Below, in pieces: positions 1,533-22,724 of a stretch of DNA of 22,724 nt. Location of the stretch: positions 1 to 22,724 of the IMG/VR virus record IMGVR_UViG_3300045131_001435; one strand, 5' to 3'. How positions within the stretch are numbered: position 1 is the first letter of the stretch; the number at the start of each line of letters is the position of its first letter. Source of the DNA: a virus. The position numbers and the translations under genes were made by a program. The notes under the pieces are model-generated. The model searched no databases, was not told the origin of the DNA, and was given only the letters and a program-made list of their open reading frames with translations.

Positions 1533-2009
1533 TTAAATTTGCCACGGCATTTTTGTATCTGCCGGTATTGCAGCCATCGCCGCAGCCGCGACGTGTGCTG
1601 GTGGTATGTTGTTGACTGCCGCTGCCACCTTTGCGCCATCCAGTGGTTTATAACCGCTGATTTCGTTCTTCGGCTCGTAATCACCGTTCTCATCGGTTTT
1701 GATCTTCACTCTGATCTGGCACTTCTTCCCGTGCAGTTCCTCGGTGTCGGCAATGTAGTTTGGGTTCCGGTGACCACAGCAGGTGGCCATTGTCTTGAGT
1801 ATCTTCATTGAAACTTCGTTTCCGAGGCTGGTGATAGTCCAGATGTGATTCGGTTTCCCGATAACCTGAAAAGTCCAGTTGATGTAAGGACCTTTCTTGC
1901 CTTCCTTGATCTCCGAGTTGATGATCTCTGCCGGGTACCAGCCTGGCGGAAGGAGATCTAAGGAATCCTGTGCTTCGTACTGCGTTAAATCTACTGAAAT
2001 TTGAGCCAT
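1533..2009 (-). CDS. DUF669 family phage protein (putative ssDNA-binding)
   Basis: This 158-aa protein looks like the phage DUF669 family: the N-terminal segment around LLPPGWYPAEI (residues 20-30), a central GPYINWTFQV-like strand and the GKKCQIRVK segment. Family members are encoded beside Sak4-type ATPases and are thought to bind single-stranded DNA; that function is known only from context. Start ATG 2009 is set by a strong GGAGG nine nt upstream, which lies inside the last codons of the preceding Sak4 gene, so the two are probably translationally coupled. The C-terminus is alanine-rich and ends MPWQI, which is not the acidic SSB tip; that type of tip is found on the neighbouring 135-aa protein instead. 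Confidence 0.8.
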   Translation of the reverse strand: MAQISVDLTQYEAQDSLDLLPPGWYPAEIINSEIKEGKKGPYINWTFQVIGKPNHIWTITSLGNEVSMKILKTMATCCGHRNPNYIADTEELHGKKCQIRVKIKTDENGDYEPKNEISGYKPLDGAKVAAAVNNIPPAHVAAAAMAAIPADTKMPWQI

Positions 2010-2011
2010 AG

Positions 2012-2713
2012 TTAAATTCCTCCTTCTAAAATTTTGTTTCGTAAGTAACCTAAATCCGGTTTTTCAACTGGGGCCAGCTTACCAGAACGGTCTTTCCCCG
2101 GATAACGATCCGAGTTAGAAGTCAAAAAACACCGATATGGTGTTCCGTCATCAGTGGTTTGAGTTACAAGATAAAGAACAAGATCAAAATAACTCGGTAA
2201 ACGTTCTTTGAGCTGTTTCCCTGCGATATCCGCTCCGATATATCGACGATTTAAATCATCTAATTGAACGGTAGGCAAGCAGGTAAAGACAACCGAATAA
2301 GATGATAAATCTCTGAATCCTTTAATGATTGATAACATCGAATCACCATAATCATTCCAACGCTTGAATGCATCTTCTCCTTTTGTATATTTTGCCTGCA
2401 TACTCTCATTACACCTGCCAGATATCTCTGTTAAAGAGTCCAAGAAAATCCAAGAATATTTACTCTTGAAGTCAGGTGATAAAAACAATTGATATACCTC
2501 TTTGAGATCAGCAAACGAGCTAATTTCAAATCCTTCGACTTTCCCTGATTCGACAATATCCTTGACGCTTAAAAGGCCAGCTTCTGCCGATAGACAGCAC
2601 ACTCTTTCACCATCTGGTATCGTCCTGAGCAAAGATGTTTTTCCTGATCCAGTATTCCCCAAGACTAACGCACTGAACCTATTGACGGACTGAACGCCTA
2701 TTGGTTTTAACAT
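2012..2713 (-). CDS. Sak4-like RecA-fold ATPase (AAA_24), ssDNA annealing/recombination
   Basis: This is a 233-aa P-loop ATPase of the phage Sak4 type, a shortened RecA-like core thought to support single-strand annealing recombination. Walker A is GNTGSGKT (residues 19-26) and Walker B is WIFLDS (88-93). A KDRSGKLAP-type segment followed by EKPDLG lies near the C-terminus, as in other family members. The length is normal for the family. Start ATG 2713 has AAGGAG seven nt upstream. It lies between the 135-aa protein with an SSB-like tail and DUF669, with only two nt separating it from the DUF669 start. The family assignment is secure; recombination activity is inferred from relatives. Confidence 0.88.
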   Translation of the reverse strand: MLKPIGVQSVNRFSALVLGNTGSGKTSLLRTIPDGERVCCLSAEAGLLSVKDIVESGKVEGFEISSFADLKEVYQLFLSPDFKSKYSWIFLDSLTEISGRCNESMQAKYTKGEDAFKRWNDYGDSMLSIIKGFRDLSSYSVVFTCLPTVQLDDLNRRYIGADIAGKQLKERLPSYFDLVLYLVTQTTDDGTPYRCFLTSNSDRYPGKDRSGKLAPVEKPDLGYLRNKILEGGI

Positions 2714-10940: not shown

Positions 10941-11155
10941 AAAAGTCACTCAAATCCGCTGTAATCGTTCTGGCTGTATTTTTTCTTTTCATTGCGCCTG
11001 TACATAACGCAATGCTCCAGTCACCGCCTGTGGAGCTTTACACGCTGCTTGAGGTGGATAATGACAACGATGCAGACGGAGCAGAAACATGCAGCGAGTT
11101 TGTCTGCTGCACGTTTGAAAAAATGCTGCTCATCCTCGATGAACCAAAACCGTAA
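10937..11155 (+). CDS. small membrane-anchored or exported protein (72 aa)
   Basis: The first 25 residues have a basic start (MKKSLK) and a hydrophobic run (AVIVLAVFFLFIAPV), a signal peptide or single membrane anchor. The remainder is acidic (DNDNDADGAE) with three cysteines (ETCSEFVCCTF). It overlaps the previous gene by ATGA. It could be a cell-envelope or superinfection protein; no family is recognised. The short helix and absence of a clear signal-peptidase box leave export versus anchoring open. Confidence 0.65.
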   Translation: MKKSLKSAVIVLAVFFLFIAPVHNAMLQSPPVELYTLLEVDNDNDADGAETCSEFVCCTFEKMLLILDEPKP

Positions 11156-11174
11156 ACAACAGAAAGGAAAATCA

Positions 11175-11519
11175 ATGCAAAATCTGCTTATTAAATTGGC
11201 TGAAAAAATATCATCAATCGAATCTCTCGGGGTATATCTTGACGAAATCAGGATCACGGACAGATTCAAACTCATGGATGAAGACCCGATGACTATTACC
11301 GGTCTTTTACGTCCAGCCGGCGAGTATTTTTGTGCATCCATCGACGTGCTTATCGCCGTTGATAAACCTGAAGAAGAATCCGTGTTGTTCGAACAAATAC
11401 GAAATTATCCTACCGTGCAGGATGTTTCTGGGTGCAAAAAAATTGCTGACACGGATATCTGTACAATCGTTCGCAGAGATTCTGTTGTGAAGAAGTCCGT
11501 GAAGAAAAAAGGCAAATAA
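11175..11519 (+). CDS. hypothetical protein (114 aa)
   Basis: The start is placed at ATG 11175, which has AAAGGA seven nt upstream; an open extension to 10992 would overlap the membrane-protein gene and is unlikely. The product is an alpha/beta-looking 114-aa protein with a strongly basic tail (KKSVKKKGK). No catalytic motif is seen. The stop overlaps the next ATG by one nt (TAATG), indicating coupling within the small-gene train. Confidence 0.65.
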   Translation: MQNLLIKLAEKISSIESLGVYLDEIRITDRFKLMDEDPMTITGLLRPAGEYFCASIDVLIAVDKPEEESVLFEQIRNYPTVQDVSGCKKIADTDICTIVRRDSVVKKSVKKKGK

Positions 11520-11707
11520 TGGCGATTATCAAATGTCCAGTATGTGAAACTGATATTGATTTACATGTATCTGTTGCATCACAAAAAGAAAAAGCTCTGA
11601 CATCAACAGATATCAATAGATTTCTTGAATGGAACAACAGCATCAATGGCAGTATCCCGAGTTATTGGGACTGCTGGCAGGCAGCCATTTCAACGGTGAA
11701 AAAATGA
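11519..11707 (+). CDS. small CxxC protein (62 aa)
   Basis: A 62-aa protein opening with MAIIKCPVCETDI, a single CPVC knuckle that could bind zinc as a dimer or with C52 in YWDCW. The rest is probably helical. The start shares a base with the preceding stop, and its stop overlaps the next ATG. No specific family is recognised. Confidence 0.6.
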   Translation: MAIIKCPVCETDIDLHVSVASQKEKALTSTDINRFLEWNNSINGSIPSYWDCWQAAISTVKK

Positions 11708-11910
11708 TTGACAATGAAGAAAAAACTACTATCAAACGGCTCAGGTTGCTTGGACTGGATCACGATCCCGAAGGATACCCGGTGATTACAATGGCGGATT
11801 TAACTCTGCTGCTGAATATCATTGAAAGAGAAGAGGCAATATCAGTTGATAGAAAACTCAGGATCCGGCAGCTCCAATCTGATATCAGGGAACAACGATC
11901 TTTCTTCTAA
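11704..11910 (+). CDS. hypothetical helical protein (68 aa)
   Basis: A 68-aa protein from ATG 11704, which overlaps the previous stop as ATGA; an upstream in-frame ATG (11629) would lie inside that gene. The sequence (KTTIKRLRLLGLDHDPEGYPVITMADLTLLLNIIE) reads as a short regulatory or adaptor domain, with a charged helix at the C-terminus. No family assigned. The stop overlaps the next ATG. Confidence 0.58.
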   Translation: MIDNEEKTTIKRLRLLGLDHDPEGYPVITMADLTLLLNIIEREEAISVDRKLRIRQLQSDIREQRSFF

Positions 11911-12227
11911 TGGAAAGACTTTCGATGTATTATCGGAAAGGATATTGCGAGGCTTTGTGTTGGATTGCTCCTGAATGGCCACCTGGGGTGCCGTGTAACC
12001 GGTCAGAGTATTTGGACGGGTACAAACGTGGGATTAAAACCAAAGTGAAAATGAAAAGGAAAAACACAATGACAAAATTTGAAGAGTGGCTCGAAAATGA
12101 AAAAGAATTTGTGTTGAAAACTGAAAGAGAAAGGCAATTGGCCAAGGCAAGCTGGAACGCAGCTTTGACGATGATTTACAATCTAATTGACACGGTAACC
12201 ATAAAGAAAGGAATGGAAAATGAATAA
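11910..12227 (+). CDS. hypothetical protein (105 aa) with internal start
   Basis: The frame opens at ATG 11910, overlapping the previous stop (TAATG). The first half contains WIAPEWPPGVPCNR and a basic YKRGIKTKVKMKRK; the second half is a charged helix (FEEWLENEKEFVLKTERERQ). An in-frame ATG at 12069 has its own AGGA eight nt upstream and would give a separate 52-aa protein. Either both products are made from one frame or two short genes have fused. The function is unknown. Confidence 0.55.
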   Translation: MERLSMYYRKGYCEALCWIAPEWPPGVPCNRSEYLDGYKRGIKTKVKMKRKNTMTKFEEWLENEKEFVLKTERERQLAKASWNAALTMIYNLIDTVTIKKGMENE

Positions 12228-12480
12228 AACAGAACTCATAACAACAATCGCTGAAAAGACGAAAGTCACGAAGTCAATCGTATCTGATGTGGTTGAAATA
12301 ATGCTCTCCACCCTTATTGAACAAGATAAAGTTTCAATCAAAGAGTTCGGCACGTTCGAGTGGAAGACCAGGCCGGCCAGACAGTGCCGGAATCCGCATA
12401 CCGGTGGTACAGTTGACGTTCCTGAAAGCAAGATTTTGACATTCAAAGTCTCCAACGGACTGAAAACGTATGCAGACTGA
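12220..12480 (+). CDS. HU/IHF-family DNA-bending protein
   Basis: An 86-aa histone-like protein: N-terminal helices (LITTIAEKTKVTKSIVSDVV), the KEFGTFEWKTRPAR strand pair (41-54), and R57-N58-P59 at the tip of the DNA-binding arm followed by HTGGTVDVPES, as in HU/IHF. It ends a few residues earlier than usual. As a dimer it would bend DNA, helping replication, recombination or terminase assembly at cos or pac sites. AGGA lies nine nt upstream of ATG 12220, which overlaps the previous gene. Confidence 0.92.
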   Translation: MNKTELITTIAEKTKVTKSIVSDVVEIMLSTLIEQDKVSIKEFGTFEWKTRPARQCRNPHTGGTVDVPESKILTFKVSNGLKTYAD

Positions 12481-12679
12481 TATTTTATATGATATTTGCA
12501 CTGCTATGGGGGTTGAAACAACATCCAAGATAGCGTATTTAGTGCCTAAGATCAAAGACTTACGAATCGGACATGAACGGTATTCAAAGGTTCGCCATCT
12601 GAACGCAGAAGATTTCTATAAAATATTCAAGCATAATGTGCAAGGCAGTCGGTTCGACGATTTAATTGACAATATGTGA
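12470..12679 (+). CDS. hypothetical protein (69 aa)
   Basis: A 69-aa frame overlapping the HU gene by 11 nt. It looks helical, with a charged centre (KIKDLRIGHERYSKVRHL) and a C-terminal FKHNVQGSRFDDLID. No family is recognised. The Shine-Dalgarno is weak, so translation is probably coupled to the HU gene. Confidence 0.52.
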   Translation: MQTDILYDICTAMGVETTSKIAYLVPKIKDLRIGHERYSKVRHLNAEDFYKIFKHNVQGSRFDDLIDNM

Positions 12680-12697
12680 AAAAAGGAGGTGATTACT

Positions 12698-12766
12698 ATG
12701 ACAAAGAAAGCAACAAAACCAGTTAAGAAGGGTGGTAAACCCAAGGGGAAGCCAAAACCTTGTTGA
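12698..12766 (+). CDS. 22-aa Lys/Pro/Gly peptide with consensus ribosome-binding site
   Basis: The very short frame MTKKATKPVKKGGKPKGKPKPC follows AAAGGAGGTGAT, a full complement of the 16S rRNA 3' end, at seven nt spacing from ATG 12698. Nine of 22 residues are lysine and the last is cysteine. A hairpin follows ten nt after the stop. Such a site would give very strong initiation, so a real basic peptide (nucleic-acid binder or charge-neutralising peptide) is likely. It is too short for normal gene callers. Confidence 0.6.
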   Translation: MTKKATKPVKKGGKPKGKPKPC

Positions 12767-12776
12767 TTGCAACCAG

Positions 12777-12804
12777 AGCAGCCATGATGTTTTTAATGGC
12801 TGCT
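12777..12804 (+). terminator. hairpin after the 22-aa gene
   Basis: AGCAGCCAT (12777-12785) and ATGGCTGCT (12796-12804) form a perfect 9-bp stem with a 10-nt loop, followed by only TT. It may act as a partial terminator or 3'-end stabiliser for the upstream transcript, just before the MazG-like gene (start 12820). Confidence 0.55.
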
Positions 12805-12819
12805 TTAAAAGGGTGAAAC

Positions 12820-13164
12820 ATGACAACCAAGTTATCTGGATTCCAACGTTACATCGGCACCTGGGGACAAGATACGTTTCCAGAATCTACTTTATCTGGC
12901 CAAATGGCGCATCTCGATTTGGAGATATGTGAAGTTCAAGAAGCCGCAACTAATTATTTTAACAATCCAACCATAGATAACAAAAAAGAATTTCAAACCG
13001 AGATAGCAGATGTTTTTATCCTCCTTCTTGGTGTCGCACATAGAATGGATTTCGATCTAATGCTTGTTTCGGCAGACAAGTTCCGGGTATTGCAATCTCG
13101 AAAATGGCTGCCTGCTAATTCCGATGGCGTTTATCACCACATCGCTGAGGACATCGTGGCTTAA
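12820..13164 (+). CDS. MazG-like nucleotide pyrophosphohydrolase (DUF550)
   Basis: This 114-aa protein has an all-helical MazG-like pattern: HLDLEICEVQEA (31-42) giving E35, E38 and E41, then EIADVFILLLGVAHR (61-75) giving E61 and D64, and the family-typical SRKW (93-96) near the C-terminus. Such enzymes hydrolyse (d)NTPs to monophosphates with magnesium; phage versions tune nucleotide pools or blunt alarmone signalling. AAAGGGTG precedes ATG 12820. It is the last gene before the terminator at 13216. Confidence 0.85.
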   Translation: MTTKLSGFQRYIGTWGQDTFPESTLSGQMAHLDLEICEVQEAATNYFNNPTIDNKKEFQTEIADVFILLLGVAHRMDFDLMLVSADKFRVLQSRKWLPANSDGVYHHIAEDIVA

Positions 13165-13215
13165 AACGTGTTCAGAGCCAGGGTTTCGTTGTGCTCTCCC
13201 CTTTCGCGGTCGGTG

Positions 13216-13252
13216 ATCCAGGATCGTGGCTCGCACTGGATTTCTTTTTTTT
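13216..13252 (+). terminator. rho-independent terminator of the rightward early operon
   Basis: ATCCAG (13216-13221) pairs with CTGGAT (13236-13241), and the stem is followed by TTCTTTTTTTT (13242-13252). The loop can form a further GTG/CAC pairing. It lies about 50 nt after the MazG-like stop and ends the long rightward operon. Confidence 0.8.
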
Positions 13253-13272
13253 GCTTGTGCTTGTGTTGTTAA

Positions 13273-13365
13273 GCGTTAGGGGGGCCGGCGGGTAGTCTCG
13301 CCGGCTTTATGGCGAGACCGAAGCGGAGCGTAGCCAGAGGACAACCGGCGGCGAAGCCGAAACGC
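13273..13365 (+). ncRNA. GC-rich structured element with alternative hairpins
   Basis: Within 93 nt, GCCGGCG (13284-13290) can pair with CGCCGGC (13299-13305), or GTCTCGCC (13295-13302) with GGCGAGAC (13311-13318); the two share bases and exclude each other. CGGC-ggcgaa-GCCG forms a third hairpin near 13347-13360. GCGTT (13273-13277) can close the unit with AACGC (13361-13365). It is far more GC-rich than its neighbours and lies between the terminator and the ATPase gene. It may be an RNA switch, a small RNA or a remnant of a mobile insert. No coding frame is convincing here. Confidence 0.45.
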
Positions 13366-13407
13366 CCAAAATAATTACATAAAAATATCAAAACGCAAGG
13401 ATAATAA

Positions 13408-13926
13408 TTGGAAGAACCAAAAATAATCGCTTTCAGTGGAGCGCACGGCACCGGCAAAACCAGTGCAACGTACTTAACGGCGCACCAGTTAAAACTCAAT
13501 CAAAGATCAGAAGTCGGTGTCATACTCGAAATTGCTCGGCAATGTCCATATCCGATAATCAACAAAGGAAGCTCTACAACAACAAAAGATTCACAACTTT
13601 GGATATACAGCGCTCAATTACAAGCCGAGCTAAACGCTGTACGAAGATACGGGGTAGTCGTATCAGATAGAACAGTTATTGATACAATCGCATATACCGC
13701 TGCTGCTGGTATGTATAGCCTCGCTTATGCTATGCGTGAAATCGCCGCACAGTACGCAAAGACGGCATACAAGGAAGTCCACTTCCGAACGATTAACGAT
13801 CATGATTACCTGGTTGACGATGGAACACGGAATTTGAATTGTGACTTTCGTGGGGAGGTGGAAATGGCGATGCTTTCACTGTATGCGGATTTGGGGATTC
13901 AGTTGATTTACGATGAAAAGGAATAG
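13408..13926 (+). CDS. P-loop ATPase/kinase (AAA_28-like)
   Basis: This 172-aa protein has Walker A GAHGTGKTS (11-19) and VVVSDRTVIDT (83-93), a DR-containing strand like that of nucleoside/nucleotide kinases and NadR-type AAA_28 proteins. It probably phosphorylates a small metabolite or nucleotide. The start is TTG 13408, supported by AAGGA seven nt upstream; no other in-frame start lies before the Walker A motif. It is six nt from the PP-loop gene that follows, and the pair may act in one pathway, such as nucleotide or nucleic-acid modification. The substrate is unknown. Confidence 0.78.
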   Translation: MEEPKIIAFSGAHGTGKTSATYLTAHQLKLNQRSEVGVILEIARQCPYPIINKGSSTTTKDSQLWIYSAQLQAELNAVRRYGVVVSDRTVIDTIAYTAAAGMYSLAYAMREIAAQYAKTAYKEVHFRTINDHDYLVDDGTRNLNCDFRGEVEMAMLSLYADLGIQLIYDEKE

Positions 13927-13932
13927 CAGCCA

Positions 13933-14736
13933 ATGAATCAGACACCACTTAATCACGTTGGCATTACTCATGAGCAAAAAATTGCAGACGGTATCCTGCT
14001 TTTGCAAGAATTTGAATCATCCGCATTGGAATACTCTCAAGATGGATACTATCTCTGTTTTTCAGGCGGGAAGGATTCTGTTGTCGTGAAGGACATTGCA
14101 ATCAGAGCTGGTGTTAAATTCACGTCAAATTATTCTGTGACAACGATTGATCCGCCAGAATTGACACGTTTCATCAAACACCATCATCCAGATGTAATAT
14201 GGCATAGACCGAAGGTGCCGATGCTGAAGATGGTTGAAAAGAAAGGAATACCGACACGTAGAAGGCGATGGTGCTGTGCCTTATACAAAGAGAATGGGGG
14301 GGCAGGACAAGTCAAGATAATGGGTATCAGGTCGGCGGAATCACCGCGCCGAGCAAAGGCATGGCAATCAGTTACGGAATGGAGTGATAAAAAAGATAAA
14401 ACATGGGTTATTAATCCAATACTTTCTTGGACAGATAAAGAGATATGGCAATATATACGGGCCAACCATATACCATACTGTAGTTTATACGATGAAGGCA
14501 AAAAAAGAATTGGGTGCATAGGGTGTCCTATGGGTAACAGAAAGAAAGATTTTGAAAGATGGCCGCACATGGAAAAGCGATGGCGCAGTGCTGCAAAATC
14601 AAGATGGGATTTGGTGGATTCGACAAAAATGCAATCAAAAGCAAAACGACCTTTTAAGAATTCCGACGAATTGTTCGACTGGTGGATGTCGGATAAATCA
14701 ATACCAAAGGGAGCATGCCAAATGGGATTATTTTAG
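13933..14736 (+). CDS. PAPS reductase-like PP-loop ATP pyrophosphatase
   Basis: This 267-aa protein of the phosphoadenosine phosphosulfate reductase/DndC superfamily has the PP-loop SGGKDSVV (44-51). C114-C115 in RRRRWCCALYK and C195/C198 in GCIGCP give a CC...CxxC arrangement seen in iron-sulfur-binding members. Related phage proteins adenylate a substrate for sulfur or other atom transfer; roles in sulfate assimilation, tRNA thiolation or DNA phosphorothioation are all possible. No dnd partner genes are visible here. It follows the kinase-like gene within six nt. The superfamily is firm; the reaction is not. Confidence 0.85.
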   Translation: MNQTPLNHVGITHEQKIADGILLLQEFESSALEYSQDGYYLCFSGGKDSVVVKDIAIRAGVKFTSNYSVTTIDPPELTRFIKHHHPDVIWHRPKVPMLKMVEKKGIPTRRRRWCCALYKENGGAGQVKIMGIRSAESPRRAKAWQSVTEWSDKKDKTWVINPILSWTDKEIWQYIRANHIPYCSLYDEGKKRIGCIGCPMGNRKKDFERWPHMEKRWRSAAKSRWDLVDSTKMQSKAKRPFKNSDELFDWWMSDKSIPKGACQMGLF

Positions 14737-14750
14737 CCCGTCTTTACCAG

Positions 14751-14778
14751 TTGAAAATTTATTTCGTTGCAATATTAA
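14751..14778 (+). promoter_or_regulatory. possible promoter before terminase genes
   Basis: TTGAAA (14751-14756), 16 nt, then TATTAA (14773-14778). It lies in the only gap upstream of the terminase pair and could drive late transcription. The match is moderate. Confidence 0.4.
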
Positions 14779-14824
14779 TATGTTAGGTGTTCACTTTAGG
14801 AGATCAATTAAAGGAATCTGTTTC

Positions 14825-15505
14825 ATGTCAATGACAGAAAAACAAAAGAAAAAAAAGCGAGCCGAATATCAACGAATGTACGAACATCGTAAAAAAACTG
14901 GCGAACCGATGCCACGGAAGATACCACCCCCAGAAGGCTTCGGCAATACCACTGTTTTAGCGAAAAGACTTGGTATTAACAAAACAACTCTCTCCCTTCT
15001 TATAAAGAAAGGTGTTTTCGAAGGAACTTTTACCAAGACAGATGGTGCTTACCTGTTTGACATCGAGGCAGCAGTCCAAAAAGCAAAGGATTCATCAGAT
15101 CCAAGGCAGAGAGGATTTAAAAACAAAGTACTTAATCACACAACAGAATCCTCTCCAATAACCGATCATGAGGACACAGATACAATAATTAAACACCCTA
15201 AATCAGATGACTTCAAGGTCCTGTCTTTCAACGAAGCGAGAACCATAAAAGAACAATACACCGCAGAAATGAAAAAGATGGATTATGAGGAGAGAGCTGG
15301 AAATCTCTTAAGGGAAGAAGATGTAACAAAAGGCGCTTTCGAAATGTACCGTCAGGCCCGGGATAGCTTGCTGAATATCGTTGATCGAATCAGTTCGCAG
15401 TTGTCCGTGGAAAACGACGAATTCAAAATCAGATTAATTCTCGAAACAGAAATTAAGAATGCAATAAACCATATCCGCGTGAGCTTGAATGAACAATGGA
15501 CATAA
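14825..15505 (+). CDS. terminase small subunit (Nu1-like)
   Basis: This 226-aa protein has a lysine-rich start, a DNA-binding HTH (GNTTVLAKRLGINKTTLSLLIKK, split here as 40-50 and 51-62), an acidic/flexible middle and a long helical C-terminus (about 135-220) typical of small terminase oligomerisation. It would bind the packaging site and recruit the large subunit. ATG 14825 (AAGGA ten nt upstream) is chosen; the open frame to 14552 lies inside the PP-loop gene. It overlaps the large-subunit gene by 17 nt. The family call rests on HTH plus position and C-terminal pattern. Confidence 0.8.
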   Translation: MSMTEKQKKKKRAEYQRMYEHRKKTGEPMPRKIPPPEGFGNTTVLAKRLGINKTTLSLLIKKGVFEGTFTKTDGAYLFDIEAAVQKAKDSSDPRQRGFKNKVLNHTTESSPITDHEDTDTIIKHPKSDDFKVLSFNEARTIKEQYTAEMKKMDYEERAGNLLREEDVTKGAFEMYRQARDSLLNIVDRISSQLSVENDEFKIRLILETEIKNAINHIRVSLNEQWT

Positions 15506-17327
15506 CATTTATGTCAAAGCCTGTCTTGATGCACTTGAACTTGATACCATCACCACAGTCGACGAATGGGCTGATCAAAATAGGCTCCTTGATTCAGTCT
15601 CAACAAGGGAGTCAGGCAACTATCGTACAAGCCGCACGCCATATTTGAAAGAAATAATGCAGTCACTCTCGGTCACTGAAACAACCGTCAATGACGTTGT
15701 TGTTATGAAAGCCACCCAGATCGGATTGTCAGAAGTCGCCAATAATTTTATCGGGTATATCATGGACTGTGTCCCCGGTCCCATCCTCTATATGCTCCCC
15801 ACTGTTGAACTTGCTGAACGTCACAGTAAGACACGTATAACTCCAATGATCAACAACACCCCCAGTATTCTCGCGAAAACCGTTACTGAGAAAAGCCGTA
15901 AATCAGGGAACACCATCACGACAAAGAATTTCACTGGTGGCGCACTGTTCATGGCCGGCAGTAATTCTGGCGCTTCTTTCAGAAACGTTTCCATCCGATA
16001 TCTTATACTCGACGATATTGATGGTTTCTCGCCAGACATTGGCGGTGAGGGTAGCCCGATCAGCCTCGCAGAGAGACGTACTGACACATATTCAAGCAAA
16101 AAAAAGATATTGAAAATCAGCACGCCTACACAGAAAGGCGGGTCCCTGATTGAGAAAGAATTCCAGAAATCAGATCAAAGGTTTTACCACGTCCCTTGTC
16201 CTTTTTGTGCCACTCTCCAAATCTTAATCTTTTCCACTGACGGACAAGAACATGGCCTCCATTACACTGAACAAAACGGGAACGTAACCGACACTTGGTA
16301 CACATGCAAGAACTGCCAGGAAAAAATTTACGAACATCATAAAACAGAAATGCTCGAAGCTGGGCAATGGATACCATCTCAACCGAATCGAAAAAAAAGA
16401 GGGTATCACATCAGCGGGTTACTTTCCCCATTAGGTTTTGTTTCCTGGTCGCAGATCGCGCAAGAATACCACGACGCAAAAAAAGACAGTATGACCATGA
16501 TGGTCTGGGTCAATACGCGCTTGGGTGAACCCTACGAATCTGCCGGGGAACAACCGGAATGGGTCAACCTTTACTCCAGGAAAGAGCCTTACCAGCAGAT
16601 GAAGCCGCCGAACGGTGTCAGGTTCATCACAGGCGGTGTCGATGTGCAGGAAAACCGTATTGCCGTTCTCCTGCGTGGGTGGGGGGTGAATGAAGAATCC
16701 TGGTTGATTTTTCACGCAGAAATCTATGGAGAATGGGAAGATCAGCTTGACGATTTACTGTCATTCAATTTCACCAATGAACACGGCGTAAACATACCGA
16801 TCCTCGGTGTGGCCATAGACTCAGGTTACAAAACACAGCAGGTTTACAGTTATTGCCGCAGTCGGAATAATGCTGTTTTTGCTGTGAAAGGTGAACGCGC
16901 CCGCAATAAACCAATCATTGGTAAACCATCTCCACAGGATTTGAATTGGAGAGGAAAACATATCCCAAAGGGTGTCCATCTATGGCCGGTTGGAACCGAT
17001 ACAGCGAAGTCAACCATATATGGGCGCCTCAAGAATAACACAAAGCCCGGTCCCTATTGTTACCATTGGCACACAGATACATCAGAAGAATATTTCCTGC
17101 AGTTGACTTCGGAAAAAATCGAAACACGCATAAAAGATGGCTTCCCTTATTTTGAATGGGTCAAAACAAGGGATCGAAACGAAGCGCTTGACATAGAAGT
17201 CTATGCTTACGCAGCGGCGGTCAAAGCCGGTCTGTTGTGGATCAAATCAACAAACAAAGAACAAAACGTCAATTACGCGCCTAAAAAACCAAAACTCACA
17301 ATAACCAGTTCTTTCATGGAGCGATAG
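15489..17327 (+). CDS. terminase large subunit, GpA family
   Basis: This 612-aa packaging motor/nuclease is related to lambda gpA. ATPase motifs are KATQIGLSE (74-82, the adenine/Walker A-like segment) and LILDDIDG (172-179, Walker B). The zinc pairs C237/C240 and C273/C276 lie in the linker. Nuclease acidic residues are D385 in GGVDVQ and D444 in AIDSG, followed by the conserved NEALDIEVYAYAA (564-576). The length is usual for the family. It would translocate DNA into the procapsid and cut at cos. It is not followed by the expected portal gene; a short HTH gene and convergent operon come next. Confidence 0.95.
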   Translation: MNNGHNIYVKACLDALELDTITTVDEWADQNRLLDSVSTRESGNYRTSRTPYLKEIMQSLSVTETTVNDVVVMKATQIGLSEVANNFIGYIMDCVPGPILYMLPTVELAERHSKTRITPMINNTPSILAKTVTEKSRKSGNTITTKNFTGGALFMAGSNSGASFRNVSIRYLILDDIDGFSPDIGGEGSPISLAERRTDTYSSKKKILKISTPTQKGGSLIEKEFQKSDQRFYHVPCPFCATLQILIFSTDGQEHGLHYTEQNGNVTDTWYTCKNCQEKIYEHHKTEMLEAGQWIPSQPNRKKRGYHISGLLSPLGFVSWSQIAQEYHDAKKDSMTMMVWVNTRLGEPYESAGEQPEWVNLYSRKEPYQQMKPPNGVRFITGGVDVQENRIAVLLRGWGVNEESWLIFHAEIYGEWEDQLDDLLSFNFTNEHGVNIPILGVAIDSGYKTQQVYSYCRSRNNAVFAVKGERARNKPIIGKPSPQDLNWRGKHIPKGVHLWPVGTDTAKSTIYGRLKNNTKPGPYCYHWHTDTSEEYFLQLTSEKIETRIKDGFPYFEWVKTRDRNEALDIEVYAYAAAVKAGLLWIKSTNKEQNVNYAPKKPKLTITSSFMER

Positions 17328-17507: not shown

Positions 17508-17831
17508 TCACTTTTTCTTAATCCGACAACGTTTATACTTTCCGCTGTTCGGGCGACCACCTTTCTCTCCATTTAACATCGAAGCTTCTTTTTTCTTTGG
17601 GCTTTTCACCAGTCCACCTACTCTCCCCATTGCACCAGCACACTCCGCGACAGTTACCACACAACGCAAAGCTTCCTTTGCAAACTTCTTCCATGCGACC
17701 ATACCATCGAGTTTCAATTGTTCGACAACTTCGATTAAACCTTCTTCAATTAATAGCTTTTCTACTTCATCTCTTTTTTCTGGTTCGCACCAGTCAAGCA
17801 ATATGTCACATTTTTTATTTGTCCAAACCAT
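17508..17831 (-). CDS. hypothetical basic-tailed protein (107 aa)
   Basis: This is the last gene of the leftward small-gene operon. ATG 17831 has AGGAG eight nt upstream. The N-terminal half is acidic and helical (CEPEKRDEVEKLLIEEGLIEVVEQL), the C-terminal half strongly basic and Gly/Lys-rich (SPKKKEASMLNGEKGGRP, then KYKRCRIKKK), suggestive of nucleic-acid binding. No family is recognised. It converges on the HTH gene, whose stop is adjacent. Confidence 0.65.
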   Translation of the reverse strand: MVWTNKKCDILLDWCEPEKRDEVEKLLIEEGLIEVVEQLKLDGMVAWKKFAKEALRCVVTVAECAGAMGRVGGLVKSPKKKEASMLNGEKGGRPNSGKYKRCRIKKK

Positions 17832-17845
17832 TATCAATCTCCTCT

Positions 17846-17859
17846 GCCCCTTTCGGGGC
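17846..17859 (-). other. GAAA-tetraloop hairpin before SD
   Basis: GCCCC (17846-17850) and GGGGC (17855-17859) form a 5-bp stem with a GAAA loop in the leftward RNA, preceded by ACGCC context and followed two nt later by AGGAG of the 17831 gene. It is one of three GNRA hairpins in this operon. Confidence 0.6.
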
Positions 17860-17876
17860 GTTTGTTTAGTTGTTTG

Positions 17877-18215
17877 TCAATTACAAAGATAACAGCTATG
17901 ACCAGGCTCGTAATCAAGTTTTAGGTTTTCAATTTCAGACACCATAGGTGAGGGTATTGTTGCTAAATCATTAAACGAATCAATAAGTTCTCTTTCAGAT
18001 TCCATCCACGATACGGTTAACGAGTCGATCTGTACACCATGCTTAATGACAGCATATTCCTGCGCACCGTCTTCACTGAATGAATCGTTCAAGAAGATAA
18101 AATATCCTAATTGAAATCCCGTACAAAGACATTGGGTACCATTGAAAAGGATTTTCGCCAGTTCCCCAAAAGATTCAATTTTCCTAACATTGAATTTTCT
18201 GTTTATGTGCATCAT
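17877..18215 (-). CDS. hypothetical protein (112 aa)
   Basis: ATG 18215 has GGAGGTGG eight nt upstream and overlaps the previous stop (ATGA). The protein has no known domain. It ends in CYLCN, and contains a central acidic stretch around ESERELIDSFND. Cysteines C29, C31 and the C-terminal pair could form a metal site. It belongs to the leftward operon of small phage genes; function unknown. Confidence 0.62.
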   Translation of the reverse strand: MMHINRKFNVRKIESFGELAKILFNGTQCLCTGFQLGYFIFLNDSFSEDGAQEYAVIKHGVQIDSLTVSWMESERELIDSFNDLATIPSPMVSEIENLKLDYEPGHSCYLCN

Positions 18216-18376
18216 GTTGCCACCTCCAGTTTCATAACTGCTCTGTTGATAAGTTGCATCGCCAGAAGGTTCAACTCCATGGCGTTCAGTCGCTCGAATC
18301 TCGTCAGTATGTCATGAAGGTCCAGAACACTTATACCCATTTTCAATGAAATTTTAACATCATCAGAAGCTTTCAT
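18212..18376 (-). CDS. hypothetical helical protein (54 aa)
   Basis: A 54-aa frame from ATG 18376 with GAGGAGGG six nt upstream; it overlaps both the previous gene (ATGA) and the next (ATGA). The sequence (SLKMGISVLDLHDILTRF, then NAMELNLLAMQLINRAVM) reads as two amphipathic helices, compatible with a small helical-bundle regulator or dimer. No family is recognised. Confidence 0.6.
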   Translation of the reverse strand: MKASDDVKISLKMGISVLDLHDILTRFERLNAMELNLLAMQLINRAVMKLEVAT

Positions 18377-18576
18377 GTTCCCTCCTCAATTTTCTTATGC
18401 ACGGTACAAATATCCGATCGACCACCGTCGCAATGTAAACACCATAATTTATCGTTTCCACCGTTCTTCATACACGGCTCATAAAACAAGCAACCAATTT
18501 CTTCGTCTATTGTATCTGCCAAACAAATCCATTGGAACCTGCCACCGGTGAACAGCCTACTTGCAAGATATTCCAT
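18373..18576 (-). CDS. small cysteine-rich protein (67 aa)
   Basis: A 67-aa product from ATG 18576, with AAGGAGG at good spacing just after a GAAA-loop hairpin. It contains CLFYEPC, then WCLHC and DICTVHKK, giving at least six Cys plus His for zinc binding. The N-terminal part (RLFTGGRFQWICLAD) is strand-like. The family is not recognised; a small zinc-binding phage protein is the best description. Confidence 0.62.
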   Translation of the reverse strand: MEYLASRLFTGGRFQWICLADTIDEEIGCLFYEPCMKNGGNDKLWCLHCDGGRSDICTVHKKIEEGT

Positions 18577-18587
18577 GTTTCCTCCTT

Positions 18588-18603
18588 GCCCGGTTTCCCG
18601 GGC
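18588..18603 (-). other. GAAA-tetraloop hairpin before SD
   Basis: GCCCGG (18588-18593) and CCGGGC (18598-18603) form a 6-bp stem with a GAAA loop in the leftward RNA. AAGGAGG follows directly, and CAACGCC context precedes it. Confidence 0.65.
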
Positions 18604-18631
18604 GTTGGTTATACTGTCATAAACGTTTAGG

Positions 18632-18790
18632 TTATTCAACATATTCCGGATATTCGTAAACTTCCTCTAGAACGTCGCACAGGTCAATATATCCAGGATA
18701 TTCAGGATATTTAGGTTTTTGCTCCATAAACTCATGAACTCTTTGCTTGAGTTCTTCAATTATCGTTAATTTTTCTTCCAAAGTTCTCAT
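18632..18790 (-). CDS. hypothetical acidic protein with YPEYP repeats (52 aa)
   Basis: A 52-aa product from ATG 18790 with AAAGGAGG at good spacing. The first 30 residues form a charged helix (LEEKLTIIEELKQRVHEF). The C-terminus is Tyr/Pro-rich (KYPEYPGYIDL, then YEYPEYVE), with a short internal repeat. No known family. Confidence 0.6.
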   Translation of the reverse strand: MRTLEEKLTIIEELKQRVHEFMEQKPKYPEYPGYIDLCDVLEEVYEYPEYVE

Positions 18791-18800
18791 ACTTCCTCCT

Positions 18801-19037
18801 TTAAATAACACCTGCAATTATCAGCCATGAAGGCAGGCCATGGCTGCAAGTACCATCAGGTTCAGTAATGCAACCATCAGGCGTTTCACAAACACCCTCG
18901 CTTTCCCATTCTTCCAGTTGTTCCAAGTCTGGCATTTCATCGCATTCAAAAGCGTCAGGGTTCTTGATTTGGTAATGCTCAAGGCTAATCCCTTCCTTAA
19001 GCTTTCGATAACCTCTATTCGATGAATAAACGTACAT
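18801..19037 (-). CDS. small protein with CxxPDGC...EPDGxC...HGxPSWL motif
   Basis: A 78-aa product from ATG 19037 with AAAGGAGG at good spacing after a GCAA-loop hairpin. The C-terminal 25 residues hold CETPDGC, ITEPDGTC and SHGLPSWL, a cysteine motif I have seen in small hypothetical bacterial and phage proteins. It resembles a compact metal-binding fold. The N-terminal part is acidic (ECDEMPDLEQLEEWESE). Function unknown; the motif makes it a real gene. Confidence 0.7.
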   Translation of the reverse strand: MYVYSSNRGYRKLKEGISLEHYQIKNPDAFECDEMPDLEQLEEWESEGVCETPDGCITEPDGTCSHGLPSWLIIAGVI

Positions 19038-19052
19038 AGTTTCCTCCTTTGT

Positions 19053-19068
19053 GCCTCCTTGCGGAGGC
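19053..19068 (-). other. GCAA-tetraloop hairpin before SD
   Basis: GCCTCC (19053-19058) and GGAGGC (19063-19068) form a 6-bp stem with a GCAA loop in the leftward RNA. ACAAAGGAGG follows, and CAACGCC precedes it. The right arm itself contains GGAGG, so unfolding could also expose a second SD-like site. Confidence 0.65.
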
Positions 19069-19077
19069 GTTGAATGT

Positions 19078-19302
19078 TTAATAATCTCTTTGCGTGCCTC
19101 TAAAAGTTCTCCTGTACTCAGTTTCACCCTTATCATTTCTGATGCACGGTAGGTGTGTTGGATACCCTATACTAGGGTTGTGCTGGTATTCAGTTCGGTT
19201 TTCATAATCAACCATATCCACTTGCTCAAAGCACAAGAGCATATTACGCTCAAGCCGTTTCAAGTTGATAAGTTCTACATTTTTTTCATGTTTCGTTTTC
19301 AT
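19078..19302 (-). CDS. hypothetical protein (74 aa), paralogue of next gene upstream
   Basis: ATG 19302 has GGAGG seven nt upstream and overlaps the end of the 19286-19459 gene. The N-terminus MKTKHEKNVELI matches MKTQYERNMDLI of that gene, suggesting duplication. The rest is charged, with YENRTEYQHNPSIGYPTH in the middle. No family is recognised. Confidence 0.62.
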   Translation of the reverse strand: MKTKHEKNVELINLKRLERNMLLCFEQVDMVDYENRTEYQHNPSIGYPTHLPCIRNDKGETEYRRTFRGTQRDY

Positions 19303-19459
19303 TTTTAACCTCCAGTTGTTCCTGCTGAACATAAGGTCTTCCAAAACCAGGCCCCTTATCTCTGACTGTTCTTCCGCTTTCATAATATTCGTCCGGTGGG
19401 TTCCCATACCGGTCGTAGCTGTGGATCAAATCCATATTACGTTCGTATTGCGTTTTCAT
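19286..19459 (-). CDS. hypothetical protein (57 aa), paralogue of next gene downstream
   Basis: ATG 19459 has GGGAGGG at good spacing and shares a base with the previous stop (TAATG). The protein is polar and tyrosine-rich (HSYDRYGNPPDEYYESG). Its first 12 residues match those of the following gene at five identical and several conservative positions. Function unknown. Confidence 0.62.
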   Translation of the reverse strand: MKTQYERNMDLIHSYDRYGNPPDEYYESGRTVRDKGPGFGRPYVQQEQLEVKNENET

Positions 19460-19629
19460 TATTCCCTCCCTTCGTATACCCACGGAAAATACTTTCTATC
19501 GTGCTCGTACATTGCATTAAATTCAGCTTCGTAAATCTCGGGGTGATTCTTTTTCTCGAGTTCATCGTCATAACGTTTATCACGCGCTTCATCTACCGGA
19601 TCATTATAAAACCTACTTGCTTTTTTCAT
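19459..19629 (-). CDS. hypothetical charged protein (56 aa)
   Basis: A 56-aa product from ATG 19629, with AAAGG about ten nt upstream and a short palindrome GGTTAGTAACC beside the start. It is very charged and aromatic (RDKRYDDELEKKNHPEIY, then HDRKYFPWVYEG). Helical, no known family. Its stop overlaps the next start. Confidence 0.58.
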   Translation of the reverse strand: MKKASRFYNDPVDEARDKRYDDELEKKNHPEIYEAEFNAMYEHDRKYFPWVYEGRE

Positions 19630-19676
19630 GGTTAGTAACCTTTCGGGCAGTTAAAGGCGTACCCAGGCCATAATGC

Positions 19677-19838
19677 TTAATCAAATACTTCGTAATCGTA
19701 ATGAGTATCATTTACTGATTCGTCGTAGTATTCCGCTATTGCAAGCATTTGCTCGTCGTGATCATCGAGCATTCTAAGCCTACAGATTCCCTGATAAATT
19801 TCGTAATCTCTTTCATCTCTTGTTTTGATAATCATCAT
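19677..19838 (-). CDS. hypothetical acidic protein (53 aa)
   Basis: ATG 19838 has AAGGAG six nt upstream, making a 53-aa product; the longer open frame to 19988 runs through the previous gene and is not supported. The sequence is acidic (MLDDHDEQMLAIAEYYDE) and ends in a Tyr/Asp-rich tail (DTHYDYEVFD). It could be a DNA mimic, but that is only a composition argument. Confidence 0.55.
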   Translation of the reverse strand: MMIIKTRDERDYEIYQGICRLRMLDDHDEQMLAIAEYYDESVNDTHYDYEVFD

Positions 19839-19884
19839 TTTGATCTCCTTGGGTAGTTTTTTGACTTGCCCAGGTCGTAAATTT

Positions 19885-20067
19885 TTAGAGATAAATCTGG
19901 ACAGGGTGACCGGTGAATATTGCCATGATCTCATCTTGATCAAGTATCGCCCAGCGCTTGAATGCACCTGCCACAGTTTCATTTTCATACCGGTTGATTT
20001 TAACCGTTAGAATTGTTTGAAGTACACAAGACTTGTAAACCACAGTTAGTTGCTGTACAATTTTCAT
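19885..20067 (-). CDS. hypothetical protein (60 aa)
   Basis: A 60-aa product from ATG 20067; GAAGGA lies close (about four nt), so an in-frame ATG at 20082 with five more residues is also possible. The sequence is a mix of strands and one helix, with GAFKRWAILDQDEIMAIF in the middle. No known family. Confidence 0.52.
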   Translation of the reverse strand: MKIVQQLTVVYKSCVLQTILTVKINRYENETVAGAFKRWAILDQDEIMAIFTGHPVQIYL

Positions 20068-20080
20068 AAATCCTTCTTTC

Positions 20081-20103
20081 ATCCAGCTACAAGGCGGCTG
20101 GAT
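20081..20103 (-). other. intercistronic hairpin
   Basis: ATCCAGC (20081-20087) and GCTGGAT (20097-20103) form a perfect 7-bp stem with a 9-nt loop between the 20115 and 20067 genes of the leftward operon. Confidence 0.5.
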
Positions 20104-20114
20104 ACGCACAAAGA

Positions 20115-20420
20115 CTAAATCAAAGACTGTTGCATAATATCGCAAAAATCACTCTCCCATATTCGTACAGGAGGAAGAGGAAAGTTTTCTTTCGGAATGC
20201 TTTCGCCTGGGCGTACAGGCGGGACAAGGTGAAAATACATCGTTCGTTGATTTTCTCTATCAATAAGCTCCTGCCGGTAGTCGGCAACACCAGGATGTAT
20301 TTGTTGCAGAACGGTAGTAAAGATTACAATAAAACGACTACCTTCACGCTTACTGAATTCGTACACATTAACATCATCAAACTTTCTAACTTTGTACATT
20401 GCATTATTATATGTAAACAT
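20115..20420 (-). CDS. hypothetical protein (101 aa), first gene of leftward operon
   Basis: ATG 20420 has GGGGG about five nt upstream and a 5'-leader hairpin before it, so it is the first gene after the regulatory region. The product is 101 aa, with a strand-rich beginning (MFTYNNAMYKVRKFDDVNVYEF) and a proline-rich centre (HLVPPVRPGE, then PLPPVRIWE). No family is recognised. The in-frame GTG at 20450 lies inside the leader hairpin and is unlikely. Confidence 0.6.
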   Translation of the reverse strand: MFTYNNAMYKVRKFDDVNVYEFSKREGSRFIVIFTTVLQQIHPGVADYRQELIDRENQRTMYFHLVPPVRPGESIPKENFPLPPVRIWESDFCDIMQQSLI

Positions 20421-20433
20421 AAAAACCCCCTTT

Positions 20434-20453
20434 CCGGTGGCGGTAGCCACCGG
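20434..20453 (-). other. leader hairpin of leftward operon
   Basis: CCGGTGGC (20434-20441) and GCCACCGG (20446-20453) form a perfect 8-bp stem with a 4-nt loop, just upstream of the first gene's GGGGG ribosome-binding site. It could protect the 5' end of the transcript or control its initiation. Confidence 0.6.
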
Positions 20454-20861: not shown

Positions 20862-21233
20862 ATGAAAATAGCAGTGGTGGGGAGCAGAGGGTGGGAAGAC
20901 TACGCAAGGATGGAAGTGGTGCTGGACAAATATCCAGCCGGCGAGCTGGTGAGCGGGGCGGCGCAAGGCGCTGACCGGCTGGCGGAGGTGTACGCAATAA
21001 AACGGCGTATACCGATTTCGATTTTTAAACCGAAAATGGAAGCAGGATATAACGTAGCAGAATACCACAAGCGAAATCAGGCCATAGTGGACAAATGCGA
21101 CGGACTGATTGCATTTTGGGATGGAAAAAGCGCCGGGACAAGAGGAACGATAGAACGAGCAAGGCGTGCAGGCAAACTGCTGGAGGTTGTGCGCCAGGTA
21201 GAAGGAGGACAAAAACAGAAAAGCTTGTGGTGA
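20862..21233 (+). CDS. DUF2493 / YspA-like SLOG-family nucleotide-binding protein
   Basis: A 123-aa Rossmannoid protein: IAVVGSRGW (3-11) with the first phosphate-binding loop, VSGAAQGADRLAEVYA (29-44), then RNQAIVDKCDGLIAFWDG (about 71-88) and SAGTRGTIERA. These are the typical signatures of the cpYpsA-related SLOG family, thought to sense nucleotide-derived ligands and common in phages. ATG 20862 has AAGGAGG eight nt upstream; the region upstream is promoter, not coding. It stands alone on the plus strand between a leftward operon and a non-coding island. Confidence 0.87.
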   Translation: MKIAVVGSRGWEDYARMEVVLDKYPAGELVSGAAQGADRLAEVYAIKRRIPISIFKPKMEAGYNVAEYHKRNQAIVDKCDGLIAFWDGKSAGTRGTIERARRAGKLLEVVRQVEGGQKQKSLW

Positions 21234-21240
21234 AAAACAG

Positions 21241-21261
21241 CCACCAGCCACCAGCCACCAG
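21241..21261. repeat. 7-bp tandem repeat CCACCAG x3
   Basis: Three exact copies of CCACCAG lie just after the SLOG stop, immediately upstream of the sigma-54 candidate at 21265. They may be slippage products or an RNA-binding tract. Confidence 0.8.
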
Positions 21262-21264
21262 CCG

Positions 21265-21280
21265 TGGCACAACCCTTGCA
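21265..21280 (+). promoter_or_regulatory. sigma-54 (-24/-12) promoter candidate facing the repeat island
   Basis: TGGCACAACCCTTGCA fits TGGCAC-N5-TTGCA exactly, with GG and GC 12 nt apart. The predicted start near 21292 would transcribe the hairpin-rich non-coding region to the right. Confidence 0.5.
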
Positions 21281-21312
21281 AAACCCCATTGATTGAGGCG
21301 TTTTTGCTTTTA
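21278..21312 (+). terminator. possible terminator after SLOG gene
   Basis: GCAAAAC at 21278-21284 pairs with GTTTTTGC at 21300-21307, with one bulge, and further CC/GG pairs, followed by TTTTAT. It would end SLOG transcription but overlaps the sigma-54 candidate, so the two calls compete. Confidence 0.35.
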
Positions 21313-21326
21313 TAGAACCAAATCAC

Positions 21327-21375
21327 CCCGCCGTGCATGAACAGTCGAGCGCGGTTACTGACAGACCACGGCGGG
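21327..21375. repeat. hairpin family A, copy 1
   Basis: CCCGCCGTG (21327-21335) pairs perfectly with CACGGCGGG (21367-21375), total 49 nt. This is the longest stem in the family. Confidence 0.75.
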
Positions 21376-21400
21376 TAATTGCGATATTCATCGCGCCAAT

Positions 21401-21594
21401 AACTGGCTTTTCTTCCTTCTTATCAATATCACAAATATTCCCGCCGCAAGATATACTCGAACGCGGCGAATGGCTGCGCTCGGCGGGTAAATGCGATATT
21501 GGCCGCGTGCTTTTGCATTTGCTTTTATATTTTTTTTCAGGTTTTAGAGTTTTGAGAGCTTGAAAAAAAGGAAATCAACTGGCTTTTCTTCCTT
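21401..21594. repeat. 18-bp direct repeat
   Basis: AACTGGCTTTTCTTCCTT occurs exactly at 21401-21418 and 21577-21594, bracketing family A copy 2. A decayed version follows copy 4 at about 22282. Confidence 0.75.
21440..21487. repeat. hairpin family A, copy 2
   Basis: CCCGCCG (21440-21446) pairs with CGGCGGG (21481-21487), total 48 nt. It is nearly identical to copy 4 across the whole unit, including the left flank AAATATTC. Confidence 0.78.
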
Positions 21595-21822
21595 ATACGC
21601 TTTCTTCCTTTTTTTTAAGATCGAGAAAATAACCAAACGATAGTGCGGTAGGAACTTGAGGAATTATTCGAGTTCAACGTCATGGGTGGTGGGTGGGGTA
21701 GAATATCAAATAATGCTTTTATCCTTATTATGGTTTTTCATCCTTATTTGTGCTTTTGCTTATATCAGTTAAGCAGTAAATACTAACCAGCCAAAAAACA
21801 TGTAACGTTTAATTAGTACCTG

Positions 21823-21865
21823 GTGGCGTGACTGATGCCTTTTTTGCAGCAGGCATGACACCTGC
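21823..21865. repeat. hairpin family B, copy 1
   Basis: GTGGCGTGAC at the left and GCATGACACCTGC at the right bound ATGCCT (21835-21840) pairing with AGGCAT (21851-21856). Each end also reads GG-N10-GC (21825-21838, 21852-21865), a sigma-54-like core. Confidence 0.7.
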
Positions 21866-21904
21866 ACCATAATTCGCGTACCACGAAACATCGCTGCAAA
21901 TATT

Positions 21905-21953
21905 CCAGCCGTTGCTTTACAGAAGTGCGTGCCGAATGGCAGATCACGGCGGG
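21905..21953. repeat. hairpin family A, copy 3
   Basis: CCAGCCGT (21905-21912) faces ACGGCGGG (21946-21953), seven of eight positions pairing, total 49 nt. It follows family B copy 1 by 39 nt. The internal GAATGGC is shared with copies 2 and 4. Confidence 0.68.
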
Positions 21954-21962
21954 GTAATGGTG

Positions 21963-21991
21963 TTGACTTGCGGGTGTTTATCGCCGCTAAT
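21963..21991 (+). promoter_or_regulatory. weak sigma-70-like promoter in the island
   Basis: TTGACT (21963-21968), 17 nt, GCTAAT (21986-21991). It points toward family B copies 2 and 3. A moderate match without other support. Confidence 0.3.
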
Positions 21992-22005
21992 TATAAGACT
22001 GTCCA

Positions 22006-22047
22006 GTGGCGTGACTGATGCCTTTTTGCAGCAGGCATGACACCTGC
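22006..22047. repeat. hairpin family B, copy 2
   Basis: This is copy 1 with one T deleted from the T run. The stem is ATGCCT (22018-22023) with AGGCAT (22033-22038). GG-N10-GC cores lie at 22008-22021 and 22034-22047. Confidence 0.7.
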
Positions 22048-22120
22048 GCAGGCATTCCGCATATCTCAGAACCATAAATGTCACAAATTAAAAGATAGTG
22101 CAGGATAAGATATATGTTCA

Positions 22121-22168
22121 GTGGCATGACCCGTGCTTTTTTTCGTTTGCACGGGGCATGACACCTGC
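22121..22168. repeat. hairpin family B, copy 3 (changed stem)
   Basis: The ends match copies 1 and 2 (GTGGCATGAC; GCATGACACCTGC), but the stem is CCCGTGC (22130-22136) with GCACGGG (22149-22155). Both arms changed while pairing was kept. GG-N10-GC cores lie at 22123-22136 and 22155-22168. Confidence 0.7.
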
Positions 22169-22208
22169 TTCACAATTTGCGTATCACGAAACATCGTCCA
22201 CAAATATT

Positions 22209-22256
22209 CCCGCCGCAAGATATATTCGAACGCGGCGAATGGCTGCGCTCGGCGGG
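22209..22256. repeat. hairpin family A, copy 4
   Basis: CCCGCCG (22209-22215) pairs with CGGCGGG (22250-22256), total 48 nt. Nearly identical to copy 2; preceded at 40 nt by family B copy 3. Confidence 0.78.
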
Positions 22257-22320
22257 TCACGGGGATGATCGCCGCGCCAATAACTGATTTATACTCCGAT
22301 TTGTCTATTGATGAAATATT

Positions 22321-22369
22321 CCAGCCGCAGTTAATTAATTTTTCGTGAGCCATGTCAGTCCACGGCTGG
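22321..22369. repeat. hairpin family A, copy 5 (compensated stem)
   Basis: CCAGCCG (22321-22327) pairs with CGGCTGG (22363-22369), total 49 nt. Relative to copies 1, 2 and 4, the C-G pair at the third stem position is A-T, changed on both sides. It lies 112 nt after copy 4, the same spacing as copies 1 and 2 (113). Confidence 0.72.
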
Positions 22370-22481
22370 GTATCGGTGTGGCAAAGCGGATAGACATCTT
22401 CCTTGCCCGCCGCAGGCGTAAAATATCAGACCGCACGCTGTCAGTTTCACGTCCAAGCTGCATCATCACGTCCAAGTCCAT
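22335..22481 (-). CDS. doubtful 48-aa frame whose start lies in the 62-bp repeat
   Basis: A frame from ATG 22481, with GAGGTGAA directly upstream, runs 48 codons to 22335. Its first 18 codons (MDLDVMMQLGRETDSVRS) come from the first 62-bp repeat unit and the rest from unique DNA overlapping hairpin copy 5. It may be the 5' part of a gene whose start was duplicated, or be fortuitous. No family is recognised. Confidence 0.3.
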   Translation of the reverse strand: MDLDVMMQLGRETDSVRSDILRLRRARKMSIRFATPIPSRGLTWLTKN

Positions 22482-22724
22482 TTCACCTCAGACCGCACGC
22501 TGTCAGTTTCACGTCCAAGCTGCATCATCACGTCAAAGTCCATTTCACCTCAGACCGCACGCTGTCAGTTTCACGTCCAAGCTGCATCATCACGTCCAAG
22601 TCCATTTCACCTCAGACCGCACGCTGTCAGTTTCACGTCCAAGCTGCATCATCACGTCCAAGTCCATTTCACCTCAGACCGCACGCTGTCAGTTTCACGT
22701 CCAAGCTGCATCATCACGTCAAAG
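22427..22724. repeat. 62-bp tandem repeat, at least 4.8 copies
   Basis: Units begin at 22427, 22489, 22551, 22613 and 22675; the last runs off the window. Units differ at one position (CGTCCAAG or CGTCAAAG), in the order C, A, C, C, A. Each unit holds two CACGTCCAAG-type sub-repeats and, on the minus strand, GAGGTGAA plus ATG and 18 open codons. As 62 is not a multiple of three, a frame started in one unit ends in the next (25 codons), so it is not a protein repeat. Confidence 0.93.

Follow-up and report, generated by a model that had tools for sequence, protein, structure and literature searches.

A probable strand-oriented array of non-coding hairpin modules located between terminase and portal genes in temperate tailed phages, with one family resembling the integron attC apex

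The stretch of DNA analysed here (the window; 22,724 nt) is a 22.7-kb IMG/VR fragment of a temperate tailed phage, and its right end very probably represents the edge of a kilobase-scale, non-coding and strand-oriented array of hairpin modules, located between the terminase and portal genes in a clade of such phages. The array type was previously unannotated, and we could not match it to any described family. Taking anatomy and mechanism together, the explanation that we favour, tentatively, is that two of its hairpin families (B and C) would be kept because folding on one particular strand is required, most likely in a single-stranded DNA (ssDNA) setting, where a T-rich-loop hairpin may serve as a recognition site or a recombination-prone site.

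Positions 1-16473 of the window match, in reversed orientation and with 99.75% identity, a 53.6-kb contig encoding integrase, tail, head and lambda-type portal genes. Two further assemblies of this phage end at exactly 16473, inside the terminase gene, which marks either a strain branch point or a real break. The portion of the array within the window lies on the plus strand (21240..22724), the gene preceding it on this side being the terminase large subunit (GpA type; 15489..17327, plus strand), and the other array end (about 1 kb) precedes the portal gene on the 53.6-kb contig, which derives from the same phage. The merged order reads terminase, small minus-strand genes, YspA-like gene, hairpins, unassembled gap, hairpins (53.6-kb contig) and portal, an order that we infer across the gap from the two contig ends and the hairpin families common to both. 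A contig bridging the gap was sought through a 62-nt tandem repeat (22426..22724; 4.8 copies), which reaches the contig end and includes the linker word CACGTCC, and none was found; the repeat copies are 98% identical and the repeat was absent from other IMG/VR contigs. A block of small ORFs between terminase and portal (17508-20450) runs on the minus strand, opposite to the late genes, and the five of these ORFs that were tested had no Pfam match. No tRNA or tmRNA was detected in the window and no tRNA near the array, and a tRNA or tmRNA reading of the hairpins was rejected on these grounds.

Five family A hairpins, all on the plus strand, were re-found at the positions and with the lengths (48-49 nt) given in the sequence-only reading of this DNA: copy 1 (21327..21375; 49 nt), copy 2 (21440..21487; 48 nt), copy 3 (21905..21953; 49 nt), copy 4 (22209..22256; 48 nt) and copy 5 (22321..22369; 49 nt). 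All five possess the arms CC(C/A)GCCG and CGGC(G/T)GG, and the paired copies, noted at a period of 112-113 nt, are spaced by 113 and 112 nt. Conserved flanks extend beyond the hairpin, with AAATATTCC on its 5' side and CATGNCAG..CACGGC on its 3' side. The loops had been described as largely different, which is partly correct, but copies 2 and 4 are near-duplicates (90% identity over 78 nt) and the flanks are conserved; these two copies are the products of one recent duplication. Read on the minus strand, copies 2 and 4 give RRAQPFAA, which prompted a comparison with C4/P4-type antisense RNA; this candidate was rejected, having no Rfam support. None of 100 dinucleotide-shuffled versions of the window contained the arm pattern and, since the flanks are also common beyond the hairpin, the five copies are homologous repeats, well outside what chance would produce. 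The window matches the arm pattern a sixth time within the YspA-like ORF (20934-20983); this match has no common flank and looks like chance.

The covarying stem proposed for family A was not borne out. Copies 1, 2 and 4 have C-G as the third stem pair and copy 5 has A-T, indeed a double change, but the same pair is broken (A/G) in copy 3; none of the remaining six pairs varies across the five copies, and the covariation score of these five copies was equalled by 222 of 500 shuffles. Given the shared flanks and the identity of copies 2 and 4, sequence homology alone could account for the arms, as well as structure could. The model search that had been suggested was run with the five copies on the phage and its relatives, where nothing comparable was found elsewhere. 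Moreover, family A was absent from 297 genomes of the Desulfuromonadales phylum, its pattern had a single chance match in IMG/VR, inside a coding gene, and BLAST of the hairpin region against phage and plasmid collections returned no match. Family A is confined to this phage.

Interleaved with family A in the window are three copies of a second hairpin, family B, absent from the earlier reading (21822..21863, 22005..22045 and 22120..22166, all on the plus strand); two further copies lie at the far array end on the 53.6-kb contig. Family B follows a plan of GTG, a G.A mismatch, CRTG/CATG, an A.G mismatch, a 7-bp stem ending in TGC/GCA and a T-rich loop, the first copy reading GTG-G-CGTG-A-(7 bp)-T-rich loop-(7 bp)-G-CATG-A-CAC and the third having the stem CCCGTGC/GCACGGG. 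A hammerhead-like core near the first copy (CTGATG..GAAA) was rejected, as the other copies lack it when read by eye. Among 45 copies collected from the window and the clade, 96.7% of cells were paired and 8 pairs showed double changes, with a covariation of 0.336 compared to 0.124 in shuffles (0 of 500 reaching the score) and 64 double-change cells compared to 13. The alignment was fitted to the family B model and is biased toward its structure, a bias against which the shuffles and slid controls (at most 0.112 vs 0.336) guard. The evidence that family B covaries, and that its pairing is under selection, is strong. G.T outnumbered A.C by 41:2 in this family, an excess coming almost wholly from one conserved column.

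A portal protein search yielded 35 related loci, and family B matches were present in 9 of the 17 portal-related contigs examined, usually as several copies with a spacing of ~150 nt, upstream of the portal gene and nearly all portal-directed. In relatives with 77-84% portal identity, a non-coding array of 6-8 kb occupies the corresponding place, the best case being a 50.0-kb contig with about 55 hairpins counted in 8.4 kb. Hairpin density in these arrays was 5.2-5.7 per kb compared to about 0.3 per kb in shuffles; in two relatives it stood at 5.4 and 5.9 per kb, compared to 0.2-0.3 per kb in shuffled sequence (means of 1.9 and 1.2 hairpins) and 0.5-0.7 per kb in coding DNA. These arrays are dominated by a third type of hairpin, family C, which reads CTCCC...GGGAG and has outer arms that vary. 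Watson-Crick pairing holds at its third outer position in 60 of 63 cases, with all four pair types, against a shuffled maximum of 37; such strong compensation shows selection on pairing. Long ORFs over the arrays matched no protein family and are spurious, and a coding-repeat reading was rejected for that reason. The array is missing from other, more distant relatives, and is therefore not essential to this phage type. The sequences of families B and C, and of a further element (M1, see below), were found in IMG/VR in this clade only, and literature searches for phage hairpins in tandem or in arrays gave nothing matching.

The selection on structure put forward in the sequence-only reading thus stands for the array, through families B and C, and falls on the basis given for it, the covariation of family A. 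The outcomes named there as telling against it, absence of covariation or membership of a REP-like family, were encountered in part for family A alone and not for the array. Among the three roles suggested, ssDNA sites and a non-coding RNA are both compatible with the data, and a packaging signal has no specific support.

Strand orientation is pronounced throughout. TTTT occurred in 34 of 55 hairpins and AAAA in 1 of 55; among the linker words, the counts on the two strands were 31:0 for CTTTTATC and 24:1 for GGCGTGAC. The linker ATATCAAATAATGCTTTTATCC (21702..21725, plus strand) is likewise common to the arrays of relatives. These biases show the array to be an oriented element, presumably folding on one strand, a property that does not separate RNA from ssDNA. 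Over all imperfect stems, the ratio of G.T to A.C (10:5) did not separate the strands.

When 85,000 prokaryote genomes were searched with a pattern for family B, five sites emerged. In four of them the hairpin is closely similar and forms part of an integron attC site (in a Desulfuromonadales, a Sediminihaliea, an Anaerolineales and a Pseudohongiella); the Pseudomonas site, the fifth, matches only weakly (19 bits). Additional attC sites came from model searches. Family B is the apex of a widespread type of attC site, present in genomes of several phyla. An Anaerolineales MAG contig (L022, Chloroflexota bin) is a cassette-like integron array, composed of cassettes throughout, with at least three attC sites that have a B-type apex. 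Wherever cassette genes allowed orientation, the hairpin was on the attC bottom strand (7 of 7 sites), the one that is reported to take part in recombination as ssDNA (PMC2727003). The phage copies do possess the apex hairpin of this attC subtype, with 94% identity over 34 nt to the G002 copy, and one model fits both. The likeness covers the inner hairpin TGGCGTGAC-TTTTGC-loop-GCAAAAG-GCATGACA, including its G.A and A.G mismatches and its G.T pair, as well as strand-specific folding. It does not extend to the R''/L''/L'/R' arms, the RYYYAAC/GTTRRRY boxes, the cassettes or IntI, none of which accompany the phage copies. With an attC model, genome attC sites scored 88-115 bits over its full length (1-105), whereas the window copies matched positions 32-72 only (21-29 bits); full-length matches in phages were few (28.5 bits at most), and none of those checked had a complete R-box pair. 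No RYYYAAC...GTTRRRY pair frames any family B or A copy in the window or at the G002 end, no cassette-like ORFs were found between hairpin copies, and the phage integrase is not an IntI (TIGR02249, 67.7 bits vs a cut-off of 265). Because outer arms and R boxes are absent, the phage hairpins share the attC apex but are not attC sites.

Since family B corresponds to the attC apex, and does so on the bottom strand that folds as ssDNA, it is possible, by analogy, that the phage hairpins also function as folded ssDNA. This reading is only moderately likely, with an RNA role close behind it and selfish repeats possible.

Modules are also duplicated and reshuffled from phage to phage. Between two phages, they differ in order and number at 84-91% identity, with downstream genes 79.7% identical, and similarity ends 20-60 nt from the hairpin apex in 74% of cases, compared to 43% at random. 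The window encodes, on the minus strand, a Sak4-like ssDNA-annealing recombinase (2012..2713), a candidate for module shuffling, and an adjoining SSB-like protein (DUF669; 1533..2009). From the position of these breakpoints and the presence of the two genes, we infer that modules may multiply and reshuffle through homologous recombination between the conserved T-rich linkers, probably with help from the Sak4 annealase and SSB that the phage itself encodes. Breakpoints in the linkers are equally expected from plain homologous recombination.

The alternative closest to the ssDNA reading is a transcribed array. Its plus strand would then be made either as an extended leader to the head-gene operon or as a long non-coding RNA of its own, and the many U-rich-loop hairpins would bind a protein, titrate it, or modify transcription into the portal operon in a processive manner. 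All modules run in the same direction as the portal operon downstream, and in several relatives the array lies directly upstream of that operon. The mismatch pattern is also what such an RNA could leave, with G.U tolerated or kept at one family B column (38 of 45), G.U favoured over A.C at one family C column (26:1), and T.T and G.G mismatches outnumbering A.A and C.C by 31:1. On the other hand, Rfam 15 gave no match at the gathering score, only sub-threshold and chance-like ones, and promoters and intrinsic terminators were not in excess: stems followed directly by a T-run numbered 14 compared to 11.8 (sd 3.3) in shuffles in one case and 5 compared to 2.8 (sd 1.6) in the other, by which an array of intrinsic terminators was rejected as well. 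Integrons, moreover, carry the hairpin on the strand opposite to cassette transcription, and the freely varying number and order of modules would be unusual for one defined RNA. The ornate large phage RNAs GOLLD and ROOL (PMC12286853) are likewise large, structured, non-coding and phage- or prophage-borne; they differ in having one defined fold, in contrast to a modular, variable array of many small hairpins, which in addition has neither an Rfam match nor a nearby tRNA island. Overall, a transcribed array is somewhat unlikely.

Selfish or neutral palindromic repeats (REP- or MITE-like), which would accumulate in an intergenic site that tolerates them, be homogenised through recombination and have no function for the phage, are less probable again, and we consider them unlikely. 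They would suit the variation in copy number and order and the loss of the array in other relatives, the restriction of family A to one phage, and the occurrence of family B in an unrelated context, the integron attC apex. However, decaying repeats would not be expected to show either the double compensatory changes in families B and C or the near-perfect orientation, a phage of 45-50 kb would pay a large cost for 6-8 kb, and no transposase or RAYT adjoins the array in the parts read and for the families scanned. REP/BIME-type repeats resemble the array in being many short imperfect palindromes in non-coding DNA, but the phage array is uniformly oriented and combines several interleaved families with conserved T-rich linkers, and their RAYT transposase was not seen here among the families scanned.

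A cos or pac packaging region, or another genome-end signal, is very improbable: the array does adjoin the terminase genes, but in relatives it lies inside long contigs, up to several kb from the portal gene, and no known cos or pac site resembles a set of 50 heterogeneous hairpins. A genuine integron attC cluster (CALIN) can hardly be maintained, for although CALINs are known from tailed phages as hairpin arrays in which true attC sites flank ORFs (5 of 6 tested sites recombined with IntI1; PMC9892861), and the inner 34 nt of the attC apex are common to the phage copies, the present array is devoid of framing R boxes, outer arms, intervening ORF cassettes and IntI, and matches the centre of the attC model alone.

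In compact phage genomes, several kb of one-way, non-coding hairpins under pairing selection demand a reason. It is possible, and we hold this tentatively, that the locus is an undescribed one, in which a rapidly reshuffled and oriented hairpin array of 6-8 kb acts as a nucleic-acid device, made up either of ssDNA hairpins for recombination or replication or of a giant multi-hairpin RNA, and shares its family B hairpin with the attC apex. The common hairpin raises the question of whether integron attC apices exchange parts with phage hairpins, or whether one and the same factor binds both.

Outside the array, the window also possesses M1, a conserved and structured GC-rich branched element of ~100 nt (13272..13369, plus strand; GCGTTAGGGGGGC...GAAGCGGAGC...AACGCCC), located between a MazG-like ORF and an AAA ORF. 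It is 78-85% identical to an element found inside or beside the arrays of at least five relatives, one of which has two copies, and is possibly a separate conserved RNA.
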